A stretch of 36,648 bases of DNA from Lachnospiraceae bacterium (lineage in GTDB: Bacteria > Bacillota > Clostridia > Lachnospirales > Lachnospiraceae), in assembly GCA_022788065.1 (NCBI GenBank), contig JALEWG010000143.1:1-36648 (forward strand), written 5' to 3'. This document shows positions 11,250 through 35,279 of this stretch, in pieces. A program made the translations under genes and the position numbers. Within the stretch, counting starts at the first letter, position 1. Every line of letters begins with the position of its first letter. The notes beneath the pieces were generated by a model, which ran no database searches, was not told the DNA's origin, and saw only the letters and a list, made by a program, of their open reading frames with translations.

Positions 11250-12062
11250 TCAGATCATTTTCCGGTACTGATATTTCCAGTTGTTGACAAGCTCGCCGGC
11301 CTCCGCCAGACGCTTGATCGGATCCTTTTCAAAGATCTGCCTGATCCTTGTCACGGCAGACGCCTCCTCTGCTTCCTTCCGGATCGCCTCCAGTTCTTCA
11401 TCCCACTGTTTTGTCTCTTCCTTATTTAGAACCTCACTGTAACGCTCCTTCATGGTGAGCTCAGGCTCCAGACGGGTAAGAAAATACATGCGTTTTAAAT
11501 ATATTCTGTCGTTCTTTTCATTCCAGGCGCAGTCATAGGCGTACATGGCTTTCTGATAGCAGAACAGTTTTGCGTAGCAGGCTGCGATATTGTTCCAGAT
11601 CCTGCTCTTAAAATCCCCTGAAAGCCGGCTTCCTCTGCCCGGTTCCAGAATCTTTTCATACATGGAGACAGCCTTTCCGAAAAGATTCAGGCTGTAGTAA
11701 TAATCCGCCCTACGCTTCGCATATTCGTCCTCCGGCAGTTTTCTCAGATTGGAAATTGTCTGGCGATACCTCGCCTGTTCCTGCGGCGTGTAGTATGCAC
11801 ACTCTGAGAGGATCAGGAACAGCAATTCGTCCGACGGTCCCCGGCTATCCAGCCATTTTTCGATCCGCTCTGCCAGAAACGGCATACAGAGTCCTGTACG
11901 CAGAAACTCCGCCAGATTCTGATTGACAAAATCCTCCATCACCAGCAGTGGATGGTGATAAATGACATAGCATAGCTCCTGGGAAGAATAGATGTGTATT
12001 CCCAGTTCCTCGATAAAATACGGGGAAGGTACCGGTTCCTGTCTGCATAAAAGTAAACTCAT
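11250..12062 (-). CDS. TPR-like protein of unknown function in DUF5716/DUF5717 cluster
   Basis: 270 aa; helical-repeat C-terminal half (YYSLNLFGKAVSMYEKIL ... WNNIAACYAKLFCYQKAMYAYDCAW); ATGA overlap with upstream gene. Confidence 0.7.
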   Translation of the reverse strand: MSLLLCRQEPVPSPYFIEELGIHIYSSQELCYVIYHHPLLVMEDFVNQNLAEFLRTGLCMPFLAERIEKWLDSRGPSDELLFLILSECAYYTPQEQARYRQTISNLRKLPEDEYAKRRADYYYSLNLFGKAVSMYEKILEPGRGSRLSGDFKSRIWNNIAACYAKLFCYQKAMYAYDCAWNEKNDRIYLKRMYFLTRLEPELTMKERYSEVLNKEETKQWDEELEAIRKEAEEASAVTRIRQIFEKDPIKRLAEAGELVNNWKYQYRKMI

Positions 12063-13285
12063 ACCATTACCTCCTGACGGATCGCCGCGTCTGTTTTCGG
12101 AAACAGCTCCCCGAATCCGCGGTCCACGATTTTGACTGCCATGGTCTTCTCATCGAGGAATCCCACTGCGATCCGGACTCTCGTCGTTCGGTTGGGGCGT
12201 TTCGGAAATCCCTCTAACGGAATCCTGACCACACGCTTCTGTTTCGGATCCTGATGCGGTGTGATGGTCAGTTCGATCTCATCCTGATCATCCAGAATGA
12301 CTTCCAGAACACTTCTGGCCTCGTACCAGCTTTCGCCGGCTGACGCAAGCGCGATCTGTACTTTCGTATCCCGCTTCATAACCTCCATGGATACTGTCGA
12401 TTTCAGCTTCCCCTCACAGATACAGATAAACGGGTAGGATGTTCTCTCATGCAGGTAATCTTCCGCCTTGAATGCGGCTCCTCTCGCAAACAGCGACGGT
12501 TCCACAAACACACGGCGGCGATTGCACACCTGTTTCATAAAATCCGGCGCCCAGTCGGTCTTTGAAAATCCCTTTCCTGTCAGAAATACCGACGAAAACA
12601 GTTTTTTCTTCAGAAATCTGTCGCCGCAGGCACAGAGGATCCGGTCCGCCATCCTGGCGCCGGAAGGGGTTTCCAGCACGTTCAGACTGAAGGCCTCCTC
12701 CAGATTTTCCTCCTCCGCAATCGCAGTCATCTGTCTGGGGCCGCGCGTCACCTTCAGTTCGTAATAGCAGAGTTCCTCGTCTGACAGAGAAAACATCCCC
12801 ACCTGTCCGCCCCAGACATCTCTCCTCTGGCTTAACACATAGTACACAAAGCATTCCGTGCGGCTCACGATATGGATATGTTCTTTTGATATGCCGAGAT
12901 ATTCCGCACAGCCCACCAGTTCATCCATCAGCTTCATTTCCATGTTTTTCAGGGAGATCACAAGCTCCGCTGCCGGAACTTCCGGATATTCCGCCCGGAT
13001 CATGTCAAACAGCTTTTCCAGATATTTTCCAAGTAACCAGACTCCGCCGTATTTCACCGAAGAAATGGTGGCTGTTCCGTCCTTCAAAGCCAGACTTAAC
13101 AGCTTGTCAACAATGACGCCCTCGCCCACCAGCGTGTATTTAAATGCTTCCTCACCGATCCACCAGTCTTCTTTCGTTTTCTTTCTGCAAATGACGGTGG
13201 GAAGAATCCAAGTCTCCTCACGCCCCAGGACAGCCGCCTGAGTGTACGTGTCACAGAGATCAATTCCAATTATCAGCTTCTCCAT
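12059..13285 (-). CDS. DUF5716-type Hsp70/actin-fold protein
   Basis: 408 aa; N-terminal phosphate-loop-like IIGIDLCDTYTQAAV, middle SRTECFVYYVLSQ, VFLTGKGF adenosine-like motif, C-terminal beta-rich region ending DRGFGELFP. Confidence 0.7.
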   Translation of the reverse strand: MEKLIIGIDLCDTYTQAAVLGREETWILPTVICRKKTKEDWWIGEEAFKYTLVGEGVIVDKLLSLALKDGTATISSVKYGGVWLLGKYLEKLFDMIRAEYPEVPAAELVISLKNMEMKLMDELVGCAEYLGISKEHIHIVSRTECFVYYVLSQRRDVWGGQVGMFSLSDEELCYYELKVTRGPRQMTAIAEEENLEEAFSLNVLETPSGARMADRILCACGDRFLKKKLFSSVFLTGKGFSKTDWAPDFMKQVCNRRRVFVEPSLFARGAAFKAEDYLHERTSYPFICICEGKLKSTVSMEVMKRDTKVQIALASAGESWYEARSVLEVILDDQDEIELTITPHQDPKQKRVVRIPLEGFPKRPNRTTRVRIAVGFLDEKTMAVKIVDRGFGELFPKTDAAIRQEVMV

Positions 13286-13302
13286 CTTTTCACCCTAAAC
13301 TC

Positions 13303-16300
13303 CTATAGCAGCGGGAACAGTTTTTCCGCTGCCAGGTTATCTGTCACATAGCCTGTCATCGCTTCTTTCAGCTTCCTGTCCTCTTTCATCCCCAGATAAA
13401 GGCTCATGGAATTCAGACAGGAAAAACGGTTTCGTTTGTCGCCTGCCGGAACCTCTACACAGGAAATCTCACCCTCGGCTTTCTTTGCCGCCGTGCCGTT
13501 CTCTTCCTCCCAGACCTCATACTCCATGATCTCACCCTCAAACAGAAGCTTCTGACGGATATAGATGCCCTTATATATCATCCGGAACTCTTCCTCATGG
13601 AATTCCTCCTCGTCCGGAAGGATTCTGATTTTTAACACCGGATGCCGGTCCGGACTCCCGTGATATTCAATGATTTCCTTGTCCATGATATCACCGGGGA
13701 TATCCGCGTACGGCGCAAGCTTCCGGAAATAGGCAAAAATGAACCCCTGCCCGGTCAGTACAGCCATCACACGCCTGCAGAGCCTTCCCTGTTCCTCCGT
13801 GAGTGCGGGCAGTCCGGAATAAAATTTCGTAAGTGCCAGCAGATAGATCTCCGGTACCTTTCGTATCTCCGTACTGGACGAAACGGCTCCCTCCAGATAA
13901 GCGAACACCCGGTCTCCGGGAACCACGTCCTTAAGGAAATATCCCACACATTTCACAGTAAAATATGCACGGACGATCACATCTCCCGTTTTCTTCCGGC
14001 TGGCATAAAAATCAAACACCGTGTCCAGATGCCTGTCATTGCCCGTAAACAACATCTGAGCCAGAAGCCGTTCCTCCAGATCATACGTCTCCACATGTTC
14101 TCTGACTGCCTGGACCAGAATTCTGTACATGGCCCCGCATGTCCCGTTGTAATGCTCACAGAGATAGTCGAGGATCACACTGTCCGCGTGACCTCCCGCG
14201 AACACACGGTATGCAAGGTGAAGGAGGAGCTCGTCCTCGTCGAACAGCTTCTGTAAGATCATGCGGCTGCACAGTTTCAACAGCCTCTTGACGCGGATGC
14301 CGTCCTCTCCGTATTCCCGGATCATCTCATAAGCTTCCGCAAAATAATTCTGCGTGATCAGCGTCTCACAGACATCGATCCGCTTTTCTCTCGAAAGTTT
14401 TTTCTTATCCAGGCGGAGCAGACAGTTTCCGCTCTCCTCCGCCATGGTCTCATCCTCACTCTGTACCTGCTTTTTATAGAAAGCGAGGATCCGTCCAAGC
14501 ATCTGCTGCTGGCAGAGCGGCCTGATCTCAAATGTATCCAGCGCCTGTTCCAGGATCTTCACCTCGTCTGCGATGATCTCCTCTTTCTTCATAATCTCCT
14601 GGCAGGCCCGCATTTTAAGCATCGGGTGATCCGGATCGATCTCAAAGCAACGCTCGATCAGTTCCGGTTCATCCATAACCGGCTCCGTCGTATAGTCCAC
14701 ATCCATATACCGGTTCCCGTATGCATCCTGAAACAGAATCACACAGTTGTCAAAAAACAGCGGCACATAGGCAGCGTTGTTCTGCAGCACATAGGCATCC
14801 TCTCCGGCAGTCATCTCATTGCACACGATCACATATTTCATGGCGCTGTCGCTGCATACGATCCGGTTGGATTTGAGAATTGCCGGCAGGACTTCCGCCA
14901 TCTGACGGTCGATGATCTCACGGTAGATCATCCGCCTGTATATCACGGCGAGATTACTGTTGATATGTGACTGGAACAACTGCTCCATGGCAAACTGCTC
15001 CATCGGCCGCTCGTAGGACCGGTACAGAGAAGTTCCGGGTTCCACATGCTCCAGAATATTCCGGTACAGCACGGAACGGCTGTACTGGTCCAGGTGACTG
15101 TGTTCATAGGAAAAGTATAAAAGTACCTGTTTTGGCAGCTTTCTGTCATAATTTTTCGGAAGCGAGTAAAGATAATACTCGTAAAGCCTCGTGAGGCTGA
15201 TTTCCTCCTCAATTCCCTTTTCATACCAGGAAAAGCTCGTTTCATTCCGCACATTGCCCTTGATCAGAAGGCAGCAGATCGCCGTCAGCATTTCCTTCGT
15301 CGGGAAACGTTCATAGAGGATCGAAAGAATCCTGTAATACAGCCGGTGGAAGAATTTCGCGCCGGAGGCCAGAGACGCTGTCGTTTCCGCAAGCGTCTTC
15401 CCGATCATTCCATGAACCGCACCGAAATAGAGCGCATGGATCTCAAACGACTCCATTGCAGTCAGAAGCTCCGGGTGCATGTCCAGAAGTCTGCATGTCT
15501 CAATATAGAGAAACGGACTGTGACAGCCGTTTTTAAATTGCTGACGGAAGCTGTCATAAAGCGCGCCCGGTTCATCGGACATCTCCGGTTCCAGCTTAAG
15601 AAGCAGCATCTGAAGATAGAATCTCCCTTTCCGATCGTCCAGTTTTCTGCGAATCAGCCGGATCACCGCATCCTTCTTCCCCGGATCGGGATCGATCCGA
15701 TACTGGAGATACTGGTAGAAGCAATAAAGAGTTCCGAGCCGTTCCCTCTCCGCCACGATCTGCTCCGCGCATTCATCAAGACAGAGCGCTGCCTGGTCCG
15801 AACGTCCGGATTCCAGATATACTTCCGCCTGCAGGAGGGAGAGCACCATGGAATTCCCGTTTGCCCCCCGGATCGCGTCCAACTCCTTCTGCATTCGGTT
15901 GAGGATCATGGATTCCTCATAGGTACGGCTCTCCAGATCTTCTCTTAACTTCATATACCGACAGACTCCGGCCTTGCTGATGCCGTTCTCGCGTACCGGG
16001 TTCTCAGCGGAACCGCCCATGGCCTCAACCGGTATCACCGTATCACCGTGAGCTGTAATCAGACGGATCGCACCGAGATTCTTTCCTTTATGCATCCGCT
16101 CCGGATGAATCTTAAATCGAAGATCAAAGCGGTCATTCTCAAAATCCGCCTGCGTGATCACCTTCTTCGGAAGCTCGATAAAATCGCCGTCAGCCCTGAC
16201 TTCCATATACAGATATCCCCAGGTATTCCTGGTCAGAACGATCTTATCGCCGATCACGTCAGAGAGACTGTCATACTTTTTCCGGGAAGCGGAAAGCGTC

Positions 16301-16878
16301 AGCTCAATGGGCTCCTTGACTCCCAGCGCCAGAAAAAATTCCTCCAGCGCATTCTGCCGGTTTCCATGTCCTTTTAATCCCTCATAGACCGTCCGGGCAT
16401 GAGTGTCCTGCATAAACGGAGCCTCTGTAAAATCCCGGTACTCCATAAGACGGAGCGCCAGGTCCATGTCCTTTTGGGCCAGATCCGCAAAATCAGCAGC
16501 CGTCTTAAGTGTAGTGATCACACGCACCGAGGATGTCATTTCCACATGGAACACAAAAGGAATCTCCCTCTCCCCGCTGTTGGTCACAAGAAACAGAGAT
16601 CCACGGATCGTATCCCCGTTTTCGCACCAGGAAGTGTCCACTTCATATGTAATATGATTTCTGAGCCCGCCGAACGCGCTGTTCAATACTTTCACCCGCG
16701 AATGGCTGGAATAAGCCAGACCTTTGATATACAGATTATTTTCACTGGAAACAAACAGTTCTCTTTTATATACAGTGTTACTCCCCAGCGTCTCCTCCAC
16801 CGATTCCGGGGAAAGAAACAGTCTGGGAAGCTCCGCGTCCACAATTCCTCTTGCCAGACGGTTGATCCGTTCTCTCAT
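13303..16878 (-). CDS. DUF5717-type large protein (1191 aa)
   Basis: Two beta-rich N-terminal segments followed by a long alpha-helical repeat region; no signal peptide or TM visible; directly upstream of the DUF5716-type gene. Confidence 0.7.
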   Translation of the reverse strand: MRERINRLARGIVDAELPRLFLSPESVEETLGSNTVYKRELFVSSENNLYIKGLAYSSHSRVKVLNSAFGGLRNHITYEVDTSWCENGDTIRGSLFLVTNSGEREIPFVFHVEMTSSVRVITTLKTAADFADLAQKDMDLALRLMEYRDFTEAPFMQDTHARTVYEGLKGHGNRQNALEEFFLALGVKEPIELTLSASRKKYDSLSDVIGDKIVLTRNTWGYLYMEVRADGDFIELPKKVITQADFENDRFDLRFKIHPERMHKGKNLGAIRLITAHGDTVIPVEAMGGSAENPVRENGISKAGVCRYMKLREDLESRTYEESMILNRMQKELDAIRGANGNSMVLSLLQAEVYLESGRSDQAALCLDECAEQIVAERERLGTLYCFYQYLQYRIDPDPGKKDAVIRLIRRKLDDRKGRFYLQMLLLKLEPEMSDEPGALYDSFRQQFKNGCHSPFLYIETCRLLDMHPELLTAMESFEIHALYFGAVHGMIGKTLAETTASLASGAKFFHRLYYRILSILYERFPTKEMLTAICCLLIKGNVRNETSFSWYEKGIEEEISLTRLYEYYLYSLPKNYDRKLPKQVLLYFSYEHSHLDQYSRSVLYRNILEHVEPGTSLYRSYERPMEQFAMEQLFQSHINSNLAVIYRRMIYREIIDRQMAEVLPAILKSNRIVCSDSAMKYVIVCNEMTAGEDAYVLQNNAAYVPLFFDNCVILFQDAYGNRYMDVDYTTEPVMDEPELIERCFEIDPDHPMLKMRACQEIMKKEEIIADEVKILEQALDTFEIRPLCQQQMLGRILAFYKKQVQSEDETMAEESGNCLLRLDKKKLSREKRIDVCETLITQNYFAEAYEMIREYGEDGIRVKRLLKLCSRMILQKLFDEDELLLHLAYRVFAGGHADSVILDYLCEHYNGTCGAMYRILVQAVREHVETYDLEERLLAQMLFTGNDRHLDTVFDFYASRKKTGDVIVRAYFTVKCVGYFLKDVVPGDRVFAYLEGAVSSSTEIRKVPEIYLLALTKFYSGLPALTEEQGRLCRRVMAVLTGQGFIFAYFRKLAPYADIPGDIMDKEIIEYHGSPDRHPVLKIRILPDEEEFHEEEFRMIYKGIYIRQKLLFEGEIMEYEVWEEENGTAAKKAEGEISCVEVPAGDKRNRFSCLNSMSLYLGMKEDRKLKEAMTGYVTDNLAAEKLFPLL

Positions 16879-17114: not shown

Positions 17115-17639
17115 ATGTTATCAGATCCCATCACTTTATACAAACTCATGATTCTGTACATGCTCGGACATGTAAATTTTCCGCTGACCAATGCCCAGCT
17201 GACAGATTTCTTTCTTGAACATGAATACACCACCTATTTCACACTCCAGCAGGCGCTCAACGAACTGTGTGAAGCCGGCCTTGTGAAAATGGAATCTATC
17301 CACAACATCTCCCGCTATGAGATCACAAAAGAAGGGGAGGATACACTCTCCTTTTTCGGCAATAATATTTCTTCCGGTATTATCGAGGACATCGACACAT
17401 ACCTGAAGGAAAACAAATTCCGCCTCCGCAGTGAAGTCGGGATCATCTCCGATTTTTACAAATCGACAAATCAGGACTATATTGTCCACTGCGAAGTCCG
17501 GGAAGGAAAGGCTGTTCTGATCAATCTGGACGTTTCGGTTCCTGACAAGGAACAGGCGGAAATCATGTGCGGACACTGGAAAGACAGGAGTCAGGAAATC
17601 TACTCCTATGTCATGCGTACCCTGATGAAATCCCACTAG
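17115..17639 (+). CDS. DUF4364 family protein (winged-helix-like)
   Basis: 174 aa MLSDPITLYKLMILYMLGHVNFPLTNAQLTDFFLEHEYTTYFTLQQALNELCEAGLV; AAGGAG RBS. Confidence 0.85.
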   Translation: MLSDPITLYKLMILYMLGHVNFPLTNAQLTDFFLEHEYTTYFTLQQALNELCEAGLVKMESIHNISRYEITKEGEDTLSFFGNNISSGIIEDIDTYLKENKFRLRSEVGIISDFYKSTNQDYIVHCEVREGKAVLINLDVSVPDKEQAEIMCGHWKDRSQEIYSYVMRTLMKSH

Positions 17640-26693: not shown

Positions 26694-28325
<1,632 letters not shown>

Positions 28326-31774: not shown

Positions 31775-32926
31775 TTATTTATTCATTTCAAGAACATCTG
31801 CGAATGCCTGAATTGCTGTGCGGGCCTGGCCGAAGTCTCGCATCTGCTGATCAATACCGAGCTTGATATGCGGGATTCCTGCATCGTCAAGAGCTTTCTT
31901 TAAGTACGGATACTCCATCTCCTCCGGATCACAGAACTGCTGCATGAACAGTACCAGACCCTGAGCTCCGCTCTCCTTAACCAGGTTGGCAACAAACTCG
32001 CCGCGGCGGTTCTCGGAGGACTTCGGATCGTAAAGCAGCACATCGTGGTCGATGTTTGCGAACTGTTTTGCAAGAGCCATCATCGGACATGCCTCATCGG
32101 TCGGAACATCGGTCTTGAAGGCGCGTGTCTCGTGAGCCACATCGTCTGCCGCGATCGCAATGTTGTTCTCCTCGAAAGCAGCCAGAAGTGCCGGATTATC
32201 ACAGATAATACCGGAAGTAACAACCTTTGTTCCGTTCCAGTCACATACCGGAAGTTTAGCAAGCTCTGCGTTTAACTCATTGAGTTTTGCTGTATATTCA
32301 GGCTTCTCCATGAACCAGAATGCCTTTAACACTGCAGAACGCTTCGTCGGTGTAATCACATCACAGTGCTCGCTTGCCAGCTTAACAAACTCACGGCGTG
32401 CGGCACGGCTCTCATTATACACCTTGATCGCATTCCAGATATCATCGTTTGTGATCTCTTTTCCGGCAACCTTTTCCAGTTCCTTCTTAACGTGATCATA
32501 CTGATCGATACAGAACTCAAGACCGAAATCCTCGAAACGGTTCTGCGGATGAGCCAGGAAGATCACAGACATCTTGTCGCCCATGGCAACGCGGAAGTTC
32601 TGGCTCATGGGGCGAAGCGTATCACAGATGGTAGGCGTAATAATTCCGTCCAGCCCGTCCATGGTTCCGTCCAGAAGCATTTCAAGAGCCAGCTGTGCGA
32701 TCGTGCAGTAGAAGGTTGCACAGTACTCTTTTGCACGGCTGATATTCTTTGTGTTGGAGCCCCAGATTCCCATCGGAACCATTCCGGCTGCATAAACAAG
32801 CTCTTCCGGTGCATAGTAAGGAAGAACGCCGATGACCTTCTTGCCCTGTGCCTTATATTCGGCAAGCTGCTGCTTCGGAGTTGCAGCTTTTACTTTAAAT
32901 TCATCTAATAATGCGTTGATACTCAT
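31775..32926 (-). CDS. hgdB: (R)-2-hydroxyglutaryl-CoA dehydratase, beta subunit
   Basis: 2-hydroxyacyl-CoA dehydratase family; conserved Cys contexts YCATFYCTIAQ, TICDTLRPM, FMQQFCDPEEMEYP. Confidence 0.85.
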   Translation of the reverse strand: MSINALLDEFKVKAATPKQQLAEYKAQGKKVIGVLPYYAPEELVYAAGMVPMGIWGSNTKNISRAKEYCATFYCTIAQLALEMLLDGTMDGLDGIITPTICDTLRPMSQNFRVAMGDKMSVIFLAHPQNRFEDFGLEFCIDQYDHVKKELEKVAGKEITNDDIWNAIKVYNESRAARREFVKLASEHCDVITPTKRSAVLKAFWFMEKPEYTAKLNELNAELAKLPVCDWNGTKVVTSGIICDNPALLAAFEENNIAIAADDVAHETRAFKTDVPTDEACPMMALAKQFANIDHDVLLYDPKSSENRRGEFVANLVKESGAQGLVLFMQQFCDPEEMEYPYLKKALDDAGIPHIKLGIDQQMRDFGQARTAIQAFADVLEMNK

Positions 32927-32931
32927 CTCGT

Positions 32932-34371
32932 TTAAGCCTCCTTTGACTGCTTGTTTGCTTCCATTGCCTCAACAAGGCCCTGTACGCGGGTCTCATACTG
33001 TGCGGCATTGAAGTTACGCGGGTCAGCCTGGTCACCATCGAAGCCTGCGCACGGAACGCCGAGATCGTTGGTGAAACGACGCTGCATCTCAGCCATATAG
33101 CCGCTCCACGGCTTACAGCTTCTGTTGTAGTGAACGAGAACGCCGTCTACCTTATTGTCACGGCAGATGCCTTCACGCCATGCAACACCCTGCTCGATGC
33201 AGACAGAGTTCGGTGCCTTATAGTAAGCACGCGCCATCTCGTCGATGTTGTTGTAAACGAAACCGAATGCCGGTGCATATACAACGGCCGTTACGTTGAC
33301 GCCGTTTGCTTTTAACGGTTTGAACAGTGCCGGAAGCTTCGGCCAGCACGGAATACCCTCAAACATAACACGGTATTTCTCCGGGAACGGTGTCGTGGTC
33401 TCGCCCTTCTGGATGGTCTCTTCAAGGTCAACAGCCAGCTGCTCAAAAGCTTCTGCTGCCTCTACTCTGGCACGGGCAGTAACGACGTCAGCCATATGGT
33501 TAAAGAGGTCAAATCCGCTGTACGGTGCCGGCTTATACTGTAAGTAATCGCAAACCTTTAACCATGCCTTTGCGGTACGGTTTGCGTTTGCACATGCCTG
33601 CTCAAATTTCTTCTCGTCAAACTTCTTTCCTGTCAGTTCTTCCAGCTGCTTAATCGCTTTGTCAAACTGAGCGCGAACATATTTTACGTTGGAATCGCCC
33701 ACTTCTACCGTATTGTTATACGGGATATCAACCATGATCAGCGGTACGTTGCACATACGGGCAATATTCTCGTACCACTTTGTCATACAGTTACAGATAT
33801 TGTTGCAGCAGAGAACGAAATCCGGCTGCGGGATCTGCATCTGACGGATCGGGGAGATTGCGGCAATTCTTCTCTCTTTATCCGGGCCGTCCGGCAGCTT
33901 TTCAAGTTCAAGAAGATTTACCAGTTCCAGATACGGAGTCTGGGTCTTCGGGTCTTTCTTCGGCTTTCCGGTCGCTTCATCGATCACAACATTTCCGTCC
34001 GCATCCTTTAACGGCTTGCCGGTGCTCGGATCGATGATGTACTCGCCGGTCTCCGGATCAAACTTACGGGCAACACGAATGCCCTTTGCGTAAGCAAGGC
34101 TGATACGTGCGTAGCCGCAGATATCGTTATCATATCCGAGATCCTCGGCTGCCTGACACATCATCTCACCGTAGCGGTTTGCTGCGATACCGGCTGCCTG
34201 ATTCTCCGGATACATTACATTCAGATCAAATGCTGCTGCAAGCTCACACGGGAACTTGGAAGAGGACCAGCCCACTAATTCGCCTCTTTTTTTGGCTTCA
34301 CGCGCATCTTTGTGAACGTCGTCAACGACTTTACGCAGCGCAAGAACGCCAGGACTTACTTGTTTTGCCAT
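32932..34371 (-). CDS. hgdA: (R)-2-hydroxyglutaryl-CoA dehydratase, alpha subunit
   Basis: 479 aa; CCNNICNCMTKWYENIARM, NRSCKPWSGYMAEMQRR; adjacent to hgdB and hgdC. Confidence 0.87.
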   Translation of the reverse strand: MAKQVSPGVLALRKVVDDVHKDAREAKKRGELVGWSSSKFPCELAAAFDLNVMYPENQAAGIAANRYGEMMCQAAEDLGYDNDICGYARISLAYAKGIRVARKFDPETGEYIIDPSTGKPLKDADGNVVIDEATGKPKKDPKTQTPYLELVNLLELEKLPDGPDKERRIAAISPIRQMQIPQPDFVLCCNNICNCMTKWYENIARMCNVPLIMVDIPYNNTVEVGDSNVKYVRAQFDKAIKQLEELTGKKFDEKKFEQACANANRTAKAWLKVCDYLQYKPAPYSGFDLFNHMADVVTARARVEAAEAFEQLAVDLEETIQKGETTTPFPEKYRVMFEGIPCWPKLPALFKPLKANGVNVTAVVYAPAFGFVYNNIDEMARAYYKAPNSVCIEQGVAWREGICRDNKVDGVLVHYNRSCKPWSGYMAEMQRRFTNDLGVPCAGFDGDQADPRNFNAAQYETRVQGLVEAMEANKQSKEA

Positions 34372-34415
34372 AATAATCCTCCTTTTTCTGACTGATCGTC
34401 AGATCTATACAATGA

Positions 34416-35210
34416 TTACTTATTTTTGCGGTTTGCCGCCTGCCATGCAAACAGCGCAGCGCCAAGCGCACCGTTATACTGTGTCAGCGGAGATGTCTTG
34501 ATCGGGCACCCAAGTTCGTTTTCGAGGGCCTTCACGATTCCCGTATTCTGAGCAACGCCGCCGGTCATAACGACTTCCGGAACGACTCCGACACGGTGCG
34601 CCAGACCCGTGACACGACCTGCTACAGAACGATGGATTCCGTTGATAATGTCACACTTATCGGTTCCCAGAGCCAGCTGACTGATGACTTCGCTTTCGGC
34701 GAAAACAGTACAGGTGGAGCTGATTCCCACGTTCTTTTTGGACATAGCTCCCAGTCTCCCGAGGTCTTCTACCTTAACCTCAAGAACACGTGCCATTACA
34801 TCCAGAAAACGTCCTGTACCAGCTGCACATTTATCATTCATCTGGAAATTGACCATTGCGCCATTTTCAATGTGAAGAATCTTCACATCCTGGCCGCCGA
34901 TATCGATTACCGTATGGACTCCCGGAAACAGGAAGTACGCGCCTCTCGCATGACAGGAAAGCTCGCTCATCTGTTTGTCCGCAATTCCATCCAGAGAATT
35001 GCGGCCGTATCCGGTCGCCAGTGTAAATGCCATATCTTCTTTCGTCATTCCGGCTTCAGCAAGTACCGTTTCGATGGCTCTCTGCGGACCGCTGGTTCCA
35101 GTTCCCACGTCGATCAGAGATTTTGCGATGATCTCCTGGCCATCTTTTAAAATAATACATTTGGACGCAGTGGAACCGACGTCGATTCCCAATGTATAAA
35201 TTGCGCTCAT
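34416..35210 (-). CDS. hgdC: Dehydratase activase (archerase, HgdC-type)
   Basis: MSAIYTLGIDVGSTASKCIILKDG, cluster-ligand contexts NDKCAAGTGRFLD and SSTCTVFAESEVI; start set at 35210 after an AGGAGG-like RBS. Confidence 0.92.
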   Translation of the reverse strand: MSAIYTLGIDVGSTASKCIILKDGQEIIAKSLIDVGTGTSGPQRAIETVLAEAGMTKEDMAFTLATGYGRNSLDGIADKQMSELSCHARGAYFLFPGVHTVIDIGGQDVKILHIENGAMVNFQMNDKCAAGTGRFLDVMARVLEVKVEDLGRLGAMSKKNVGISSTCTVFAESEVISQLALGTDKCDIINGIHRSVAGRVTGLAHRVGVVPEVVMTGGVAQNTGIVKALENELGCPIKTSPLTQYNGALGAALFAWQAANRKNK

Positions 35211-35249
35211 AATAACCTCCGGATTTTCCTTTTGTATCTTACCGAAAAC

Positions 35250-35279
35250 AGTATAGCACACCTGCCTCGGATGCCGCAA
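35250..35279 (-). promoter_or_regulatory. Putative internal promoter for hgdCAB
   Basis: Minus strand TTGCGG - 18 nt - TATACT in the gcdA-hgdC gap. Confidence 0.5.

Follow-up and report, generated by a model that had tools for sequence, protein, structure and literature searches.

A predicted catalytically dead Hsp70 between two repeat proteins: a Lachnospiraceae operon as the probable scaffold of a reduced Hsp70 machine

The three-gene operon described here lies in a 36,648-nucleotide stretch of Lachnospiraceae DNA, the whole of which we refer to as the window. We interpret it, with a probability of roughly 0.6, as what is left of a dedicated Hsp70 machine after the loss of its motor, namely the scaffold. 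The computations establish the ancestry and fold, the loss of the catalytic residues, and the synteny, co-occurrence and gene fusion. The genes, from this point on the trio, are as follows:

13303-16878, minus strand: DUF5717 protein, 1191 aa (open reading frame, Pfam, AlphaFold model)
12059-13285, minus strand: DUF5716 protein, predicted to be a catalytically dead Hsp70, 408 aa (open reading frame, Pfam, model, profiles)
11250-12062, minus strand: TPR protein, 270 aa (open reading frame, family profile)

As read from the sequence alone, the three minus-strand frames are tightly packed at these positions, with a 17-nt gap and then a 4-nt overlap, and the genes around them (an AbgT transporter, a DUF4364 regulator, engB, lon and valS) are indeed unrelated to the trio. 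The DUF4364 gene, which encodes a winged-helix-like protein (17115-17639, plus strand), is divergent and adjoins the operon directly upstream; in the other loci compared, no such gene was seen beside the operon. A scan for promoters and terminators gave no signal above chance. Elsewhere in the window are a second chaperone unrelated to the trio, the chaperonin GroEL (26694-28325, minus strand), and a 2-hydroxyacyl-CoA dehydratase set (31775-35279, minus strand) of two HadB/HadC-related subunits and an activase (TIGR00241) that is itself an ASKHA-fold protein.

The second protein matches DUF5716_C (PF18980) with an E-value of 2.2e-98. Its AlphaFold model, built with 31 homologues, is confident (pLDDT 93.2, pTM 0.90) and has stimulating-state DnaK as its best PDB match (query TM 0.65, E = 2.5e-19; the TM for post-hydrolysis DnaK, 2v7y, is 0.46). 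All of the best 50 listed PDB matches are Hsp70-type chains and none is actin-like; the Ssz1 structures 6sr6 and 7x3k rank among the top ones. A single-sequence search against PDB sequences returned nothing useful, and the family profile was needed; it matches DnaK at 9e-16. Pfam HSP70 is also matched by 5 of 31 DUF5716 members (best E-value 1.9e-16), and an hhalign comparison with Hsp70b, one of three other Hsp70 paralogues encoded in related operons (Hsp70a, Hsp70b and Hsp70-VWA; see below), gives a probability of 100 and an E-value of 3.7e-43 across both domains. In a tree of 59 Hsp70s, five clean clades are recovered with DUF5716 beside Hsp70b, and the branch parting these two from DnaK, Hsp70a and Hsp70-VWA has a support of 100/100; the exact join to Hsp70b, given the long branches, is tentative. 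The model consists of an ASKHA nucleotide-binding domain followed by an SBD-beta domain, with which the 408-residue chain ends. DUF5716 is a derived Hsp70 that lacks the helical lid.

The nucleotide site tells a different story from the fold. To assess it, we placed 115 DUF5716 proteins in one alignment with Hsp70a, Hsp70b and Hsp70-VWA from the operons of sister families. In this low-identity alignment, DUF5716 does not carry the residues of an ATP-driven Hsp70 (Lys70, Glu171, Thr199 and the GGGT phosphate-2 loop): the catalytic Lys, the Lys, Glu and Thr set and the GGGT motif are each found in 0 of the 115 proteins. All 16 nucleotide-site positions checked are kept in essentially every Hsp70a, Hsp70b and Hsp70-VWA. 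In Lachnospiraceae DUF5716, the stretch from the phosphate-2 to the adenosine motif has a median length of 62 residues instead of 135, a shortening by roughly the length of subdomain IIB and consistent with its loss. Judged by its aligned residues, DUF5716 thus appears to be a dead Hsp70, and an earlier description of it as an actin/Hsp70-like ATPase survives in part: the Hsp70 fold stands, complete with SBD-beta, while actin and, on the evidence of the 115 homologues, ATPase have to be given up. D8 of phosphate-1 is kept in 17/17 sister-family and 82/98 Lachnospiraceae members, and D194 in 16/17 of the former, so that nucleotide binding without hydrolysis may remain. Against its closest relative the window protein shows a dN of 0.11 and a dS of 2.09, which indicates that the protein is under constraint despite the dead site.

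The two proteins that enclose DUF5716 are both repeat proteins. Pfam assigns the 1191-aa protein to DUF5717_N (PF18984, E = 1.9e-277) and to the DUF5717 C-terminal family (PF18983, E = 4.4e-80), which together cover its whole length. Its AlphaFold model (pLDDT 84.7, pTM 0.52), in which the arrangement of the domains is uncertain, contains the following predicted parts:

residues ~20-113 and ~193-288: beta (Ig/ASH-like) domains
residues ~294-1065: TPR-type alpha-solenoid
residues ~670-733: beta insert in the solenoid
residues ~1067-1139: further beta domain

The beta part gives local, low-TM matches to ciliary central-apparatus proteins and the SPD-2 domain of CEP192, and the solenoid gives local, low-TM matches to Ctr9, Ski3 and Naa15; for the predicted model, these matches point to scaffold-type proteins. 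The third protein on its own reaches only an E-value of 0.0016 with TPR_1, below the Pfam cut-off. Its family profile matches TPR structures strongly, which makes the assignment firm, and the protein has, besides its TPR repeats, an N-terminal domain of some 110 aa that is conserved and of no recognised type.

The trio is kept by essentially all Lachnospiraceae. DUF5716 is present in 25 of 25 sampled members, the window genome included, and every well-assembled sampled member has the trio, in the same order and on the same strand in 84 of 84 complete loci (median gaps of 16 and 13.5 nt). Absence of co-occurrence would have refuted the earlier reading, but in a set of 146 genomes from the order the two DUF families do occur together: both are found in 74 and neither in 70, with one genome for each alone (agreement 144/146, p = 1e-39), and the two exceptions are assemblies that are 67% and 80% complete. 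In 291 genomes of the class, few of which belong to the same order, the DUF5717 solenoid profile is found only in Lachnospiraceae. The association is far beyond chance. Two species have a single fused gene for DUF5716 and the TPR protein, of 708 and 747 aa, and each domain of the fusions matches its own profile over nearly its full length. Fusion, synteny and co-occurrence together support a physical complex of the trio. Of the 76 loci whose sequence extends far enough, 35 have a gene for a coiled-coil membrane protein after the trio; this gene was not found in the window genome. By context, only the trio and this gene stand out as functional partners; the remaining flanks are housekeeping genes (purine genes, valS, an aminotransferase) that differ between genera.

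In sister families, the trio corresponds to part of a nine-gene operon, a relationship that the earlier three-gene view missed. The order is an Ig/ASH-like beta-domain protein, a TPR solenoid, Hsp70a, a GrpE-like protein, DUF5716, Hsp70b, Hsp70-VWA, a TPR protein and, in many cases, a coiled-coil protein predicted to contain a membrane segment. The first two of these are the two halves of DUF5717. The GrpE-like genes match the GrpE family above its cut-off (PF01025; E = 5e-12, 2e-9 and 3e-13). Genomes with the full operon hold three Hsp70s beyond DnaK and a second GrpE; the window genome has a single canonical DnaK and a single GrpE. An aminotransferase upstream (on the other strand) and valS downstream recur both in sister families and in Lachnospiraceae, which indicates one locus by descent. 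In one sister locus (L021, 6340-8384, minus strand) the Hsp70-VWA and TPR genes are each split into two frames, either through assembly errors or through recent decay.

That the full operon is spread widely across families argues for loss rather than gain. The starting machine would have comprised three intact Hsp70 paralogues (one VWA-fused), a private GrpE-like exchange factor, DUF5716, the DUF5717 solenoid, a TPR adaptor and a coiled-coil membrane protein; what would remain in Lachnospiraceae is DUF5717, now one fused gene, DUF5716 and the TPR adaptor, with the membrane protein in about half of the loci. Outside the family, one genome (96% complete) has, of the nine genes, just those for the beta-domain protein, the solenoid, DUF5716, the TPR protein and the coiled-coil protein; with DnaK as its only full Hsp70, it apparently represents a second, independent loss of the same ATP-driven module. 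We envisage a stable complex of the three proteins, with DUF5716 held in an ATP-like, domain-docked conformation on the solenoid and the TPR protein. There it would serve as a fixed peptide-binding or scaffolding subunit, acting without ATP as a holdase or passing clients to the housekeeping DnaK and GrpE. Several Lachnospiraceae genomes carry extra, unlinked Hsp70s of about 560-590 aa, which are possible partners of the dead Hsp70. A more far-reaching account, which we put at somewhat less than even odds, holds that a solenoid-built, membrane-tethered machine with three active and one dead Hsp70 paralogue and a private exchange factor was converted at least twice, by loss of all its ATPases, to an ATP-independent scaffold that essentially all Lachnospiraceae keep. 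If this is true, the indispensable part of an Hsp70 machine is the inactive subunit and not the engine.

Other explanations of the operon were weighed against this one. DUF5716 might be a nucleotide-regulated switch, either actin/MreB/FtsA-like or an unusual ATPase, within a cytoskeletal or assembly motor. The retention of D8 and D194 favours such a switch, but the fold matches are Hsp70s with an SBD-beta domain, the catalytic Lys and the GGGT motif are gone throughout, and roughly the length of subdomain IIB is missing in Lachnospiraceae, all of which makes the motor quite unlikely. Unlikely, too, is a co-chaperone in the manner of the yeast ribosome-associated complex, an inactive Hsp70 that, like Ssz1, places the housekeeping DnaK at the ribosome, the membrane or another fixed site. 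Ssz1 among the top fold matches, the DnaK and GrpE of the window genome and the predicted membrane partner in nearly half of the loci all agree with it; nevertheless, no DnaJ match occurs in the conserved genes scanned, and the window genome is without the membrane partner.

Two further readings concern what the trio is for. A conflict or anti-phage system could be imagined from GAP1-N2 GTPase neighbourhoods in Firmicutes and Actinobacteria, which carry two Hsp70s, GrpE and an FNIII protein with a DnaJ or TPR fusion (PMC7159879). However, the Pfam matches of the nine conserved genes include neither a GTPase nor an effector, PADLOC has no match for the window trio (two sister-operon Hsp70s give one weak generic match only), and a single-copy set that is near-universal in the family and sits near housekeeping genes (valS, in several families) is unlike patchy mobile defence; we regard this origin as very unlikely. 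The same low odds attach to the flagellum, or another motility or envelope structure, as the client. Genomes that carry the system have flagellin more often than the others (67/75 versus 37/71, p = 6e-7), a statistic that ignores phylogeny, and the window genome has no flagellin match yet has the operon. Sporulation, once suggested as a phenotype to look at, has no association with the system as judged by Spo0A (57/75 system-positive versus 52/71 other genomes, p = 0.71). The defence, flagellar and sporulation readings are thus weakly supported or not supported, while the broader expectation finds support, namely that a conserved operon of scaffold type places an Hsp70-fold protein between two repeat proteins and is linked to chaperoning.

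Lachnospiraceae are among the dominant human gut bacteria, and two of the trio proteins carry only DUF names despite their presence across the sampled members of the family. By score, the window proteins are full members of DUF5716_C, DUF5717_N and the DUF5717 C-terminal family, entries for which Pfam gives no function. A literature search on DUF5716 and DUF5717 found no relevant paper, and neither the Hsp70 nature of DUF5716, the trio nor the nine-gene form is described in the literature searched. New here are the larger, nine-gene form and the view that the short form of Lachnospiraceae probably arose from it by loss of just the ATP-driven module, the scaffold being retained. The assignment of DUF5716 as a probable dead Hsp70, together with the intact nine-gene form, gives these families a testable biochemical identity, and the reduced operon can serve as a natural experiment on the work left to an Hsp70 machine without its ATPases.

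Among known systems, DnaK/GrpE is matched by DUF5716 in the fold of both domains and by the sister operon in its three intact Hsp70s and GrpE-like factor; unlike DnaK, DUF5716 appears to have neither the catalytic residues nor the helical lid, and its Lachnospiraceae members also lack roughly the length of subdomain IIB. A literature search on operons with Hsp70, VWA, GrpE and TPR proteins returned as its only match a different system, the GAP1-N2 neighbourhoods (PMC7159879). These are the closest published theme, since the sister operon likewise joins an Hsp70, GrpE, a second Hsp70 and a beta-domain/TPR protein, but neither their defining GTPase nor any effector was found in the conserved genes scanned, and the present operon is a near-universal single-copy set, not a variable locus. 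As an inactive partner Hsp70, DUF5716 is functionally closest to Ssz1 of the yeast ribosome-associated complex, a non-canonical Hsp70 that partners other chaperones (PMC7083937). Ssz1 pairs with a J-domain protein, of which the conserved DUF5716-locus genes scanned gave no example, and what the two would have in common is a mode of action and not a special shared ancestry.
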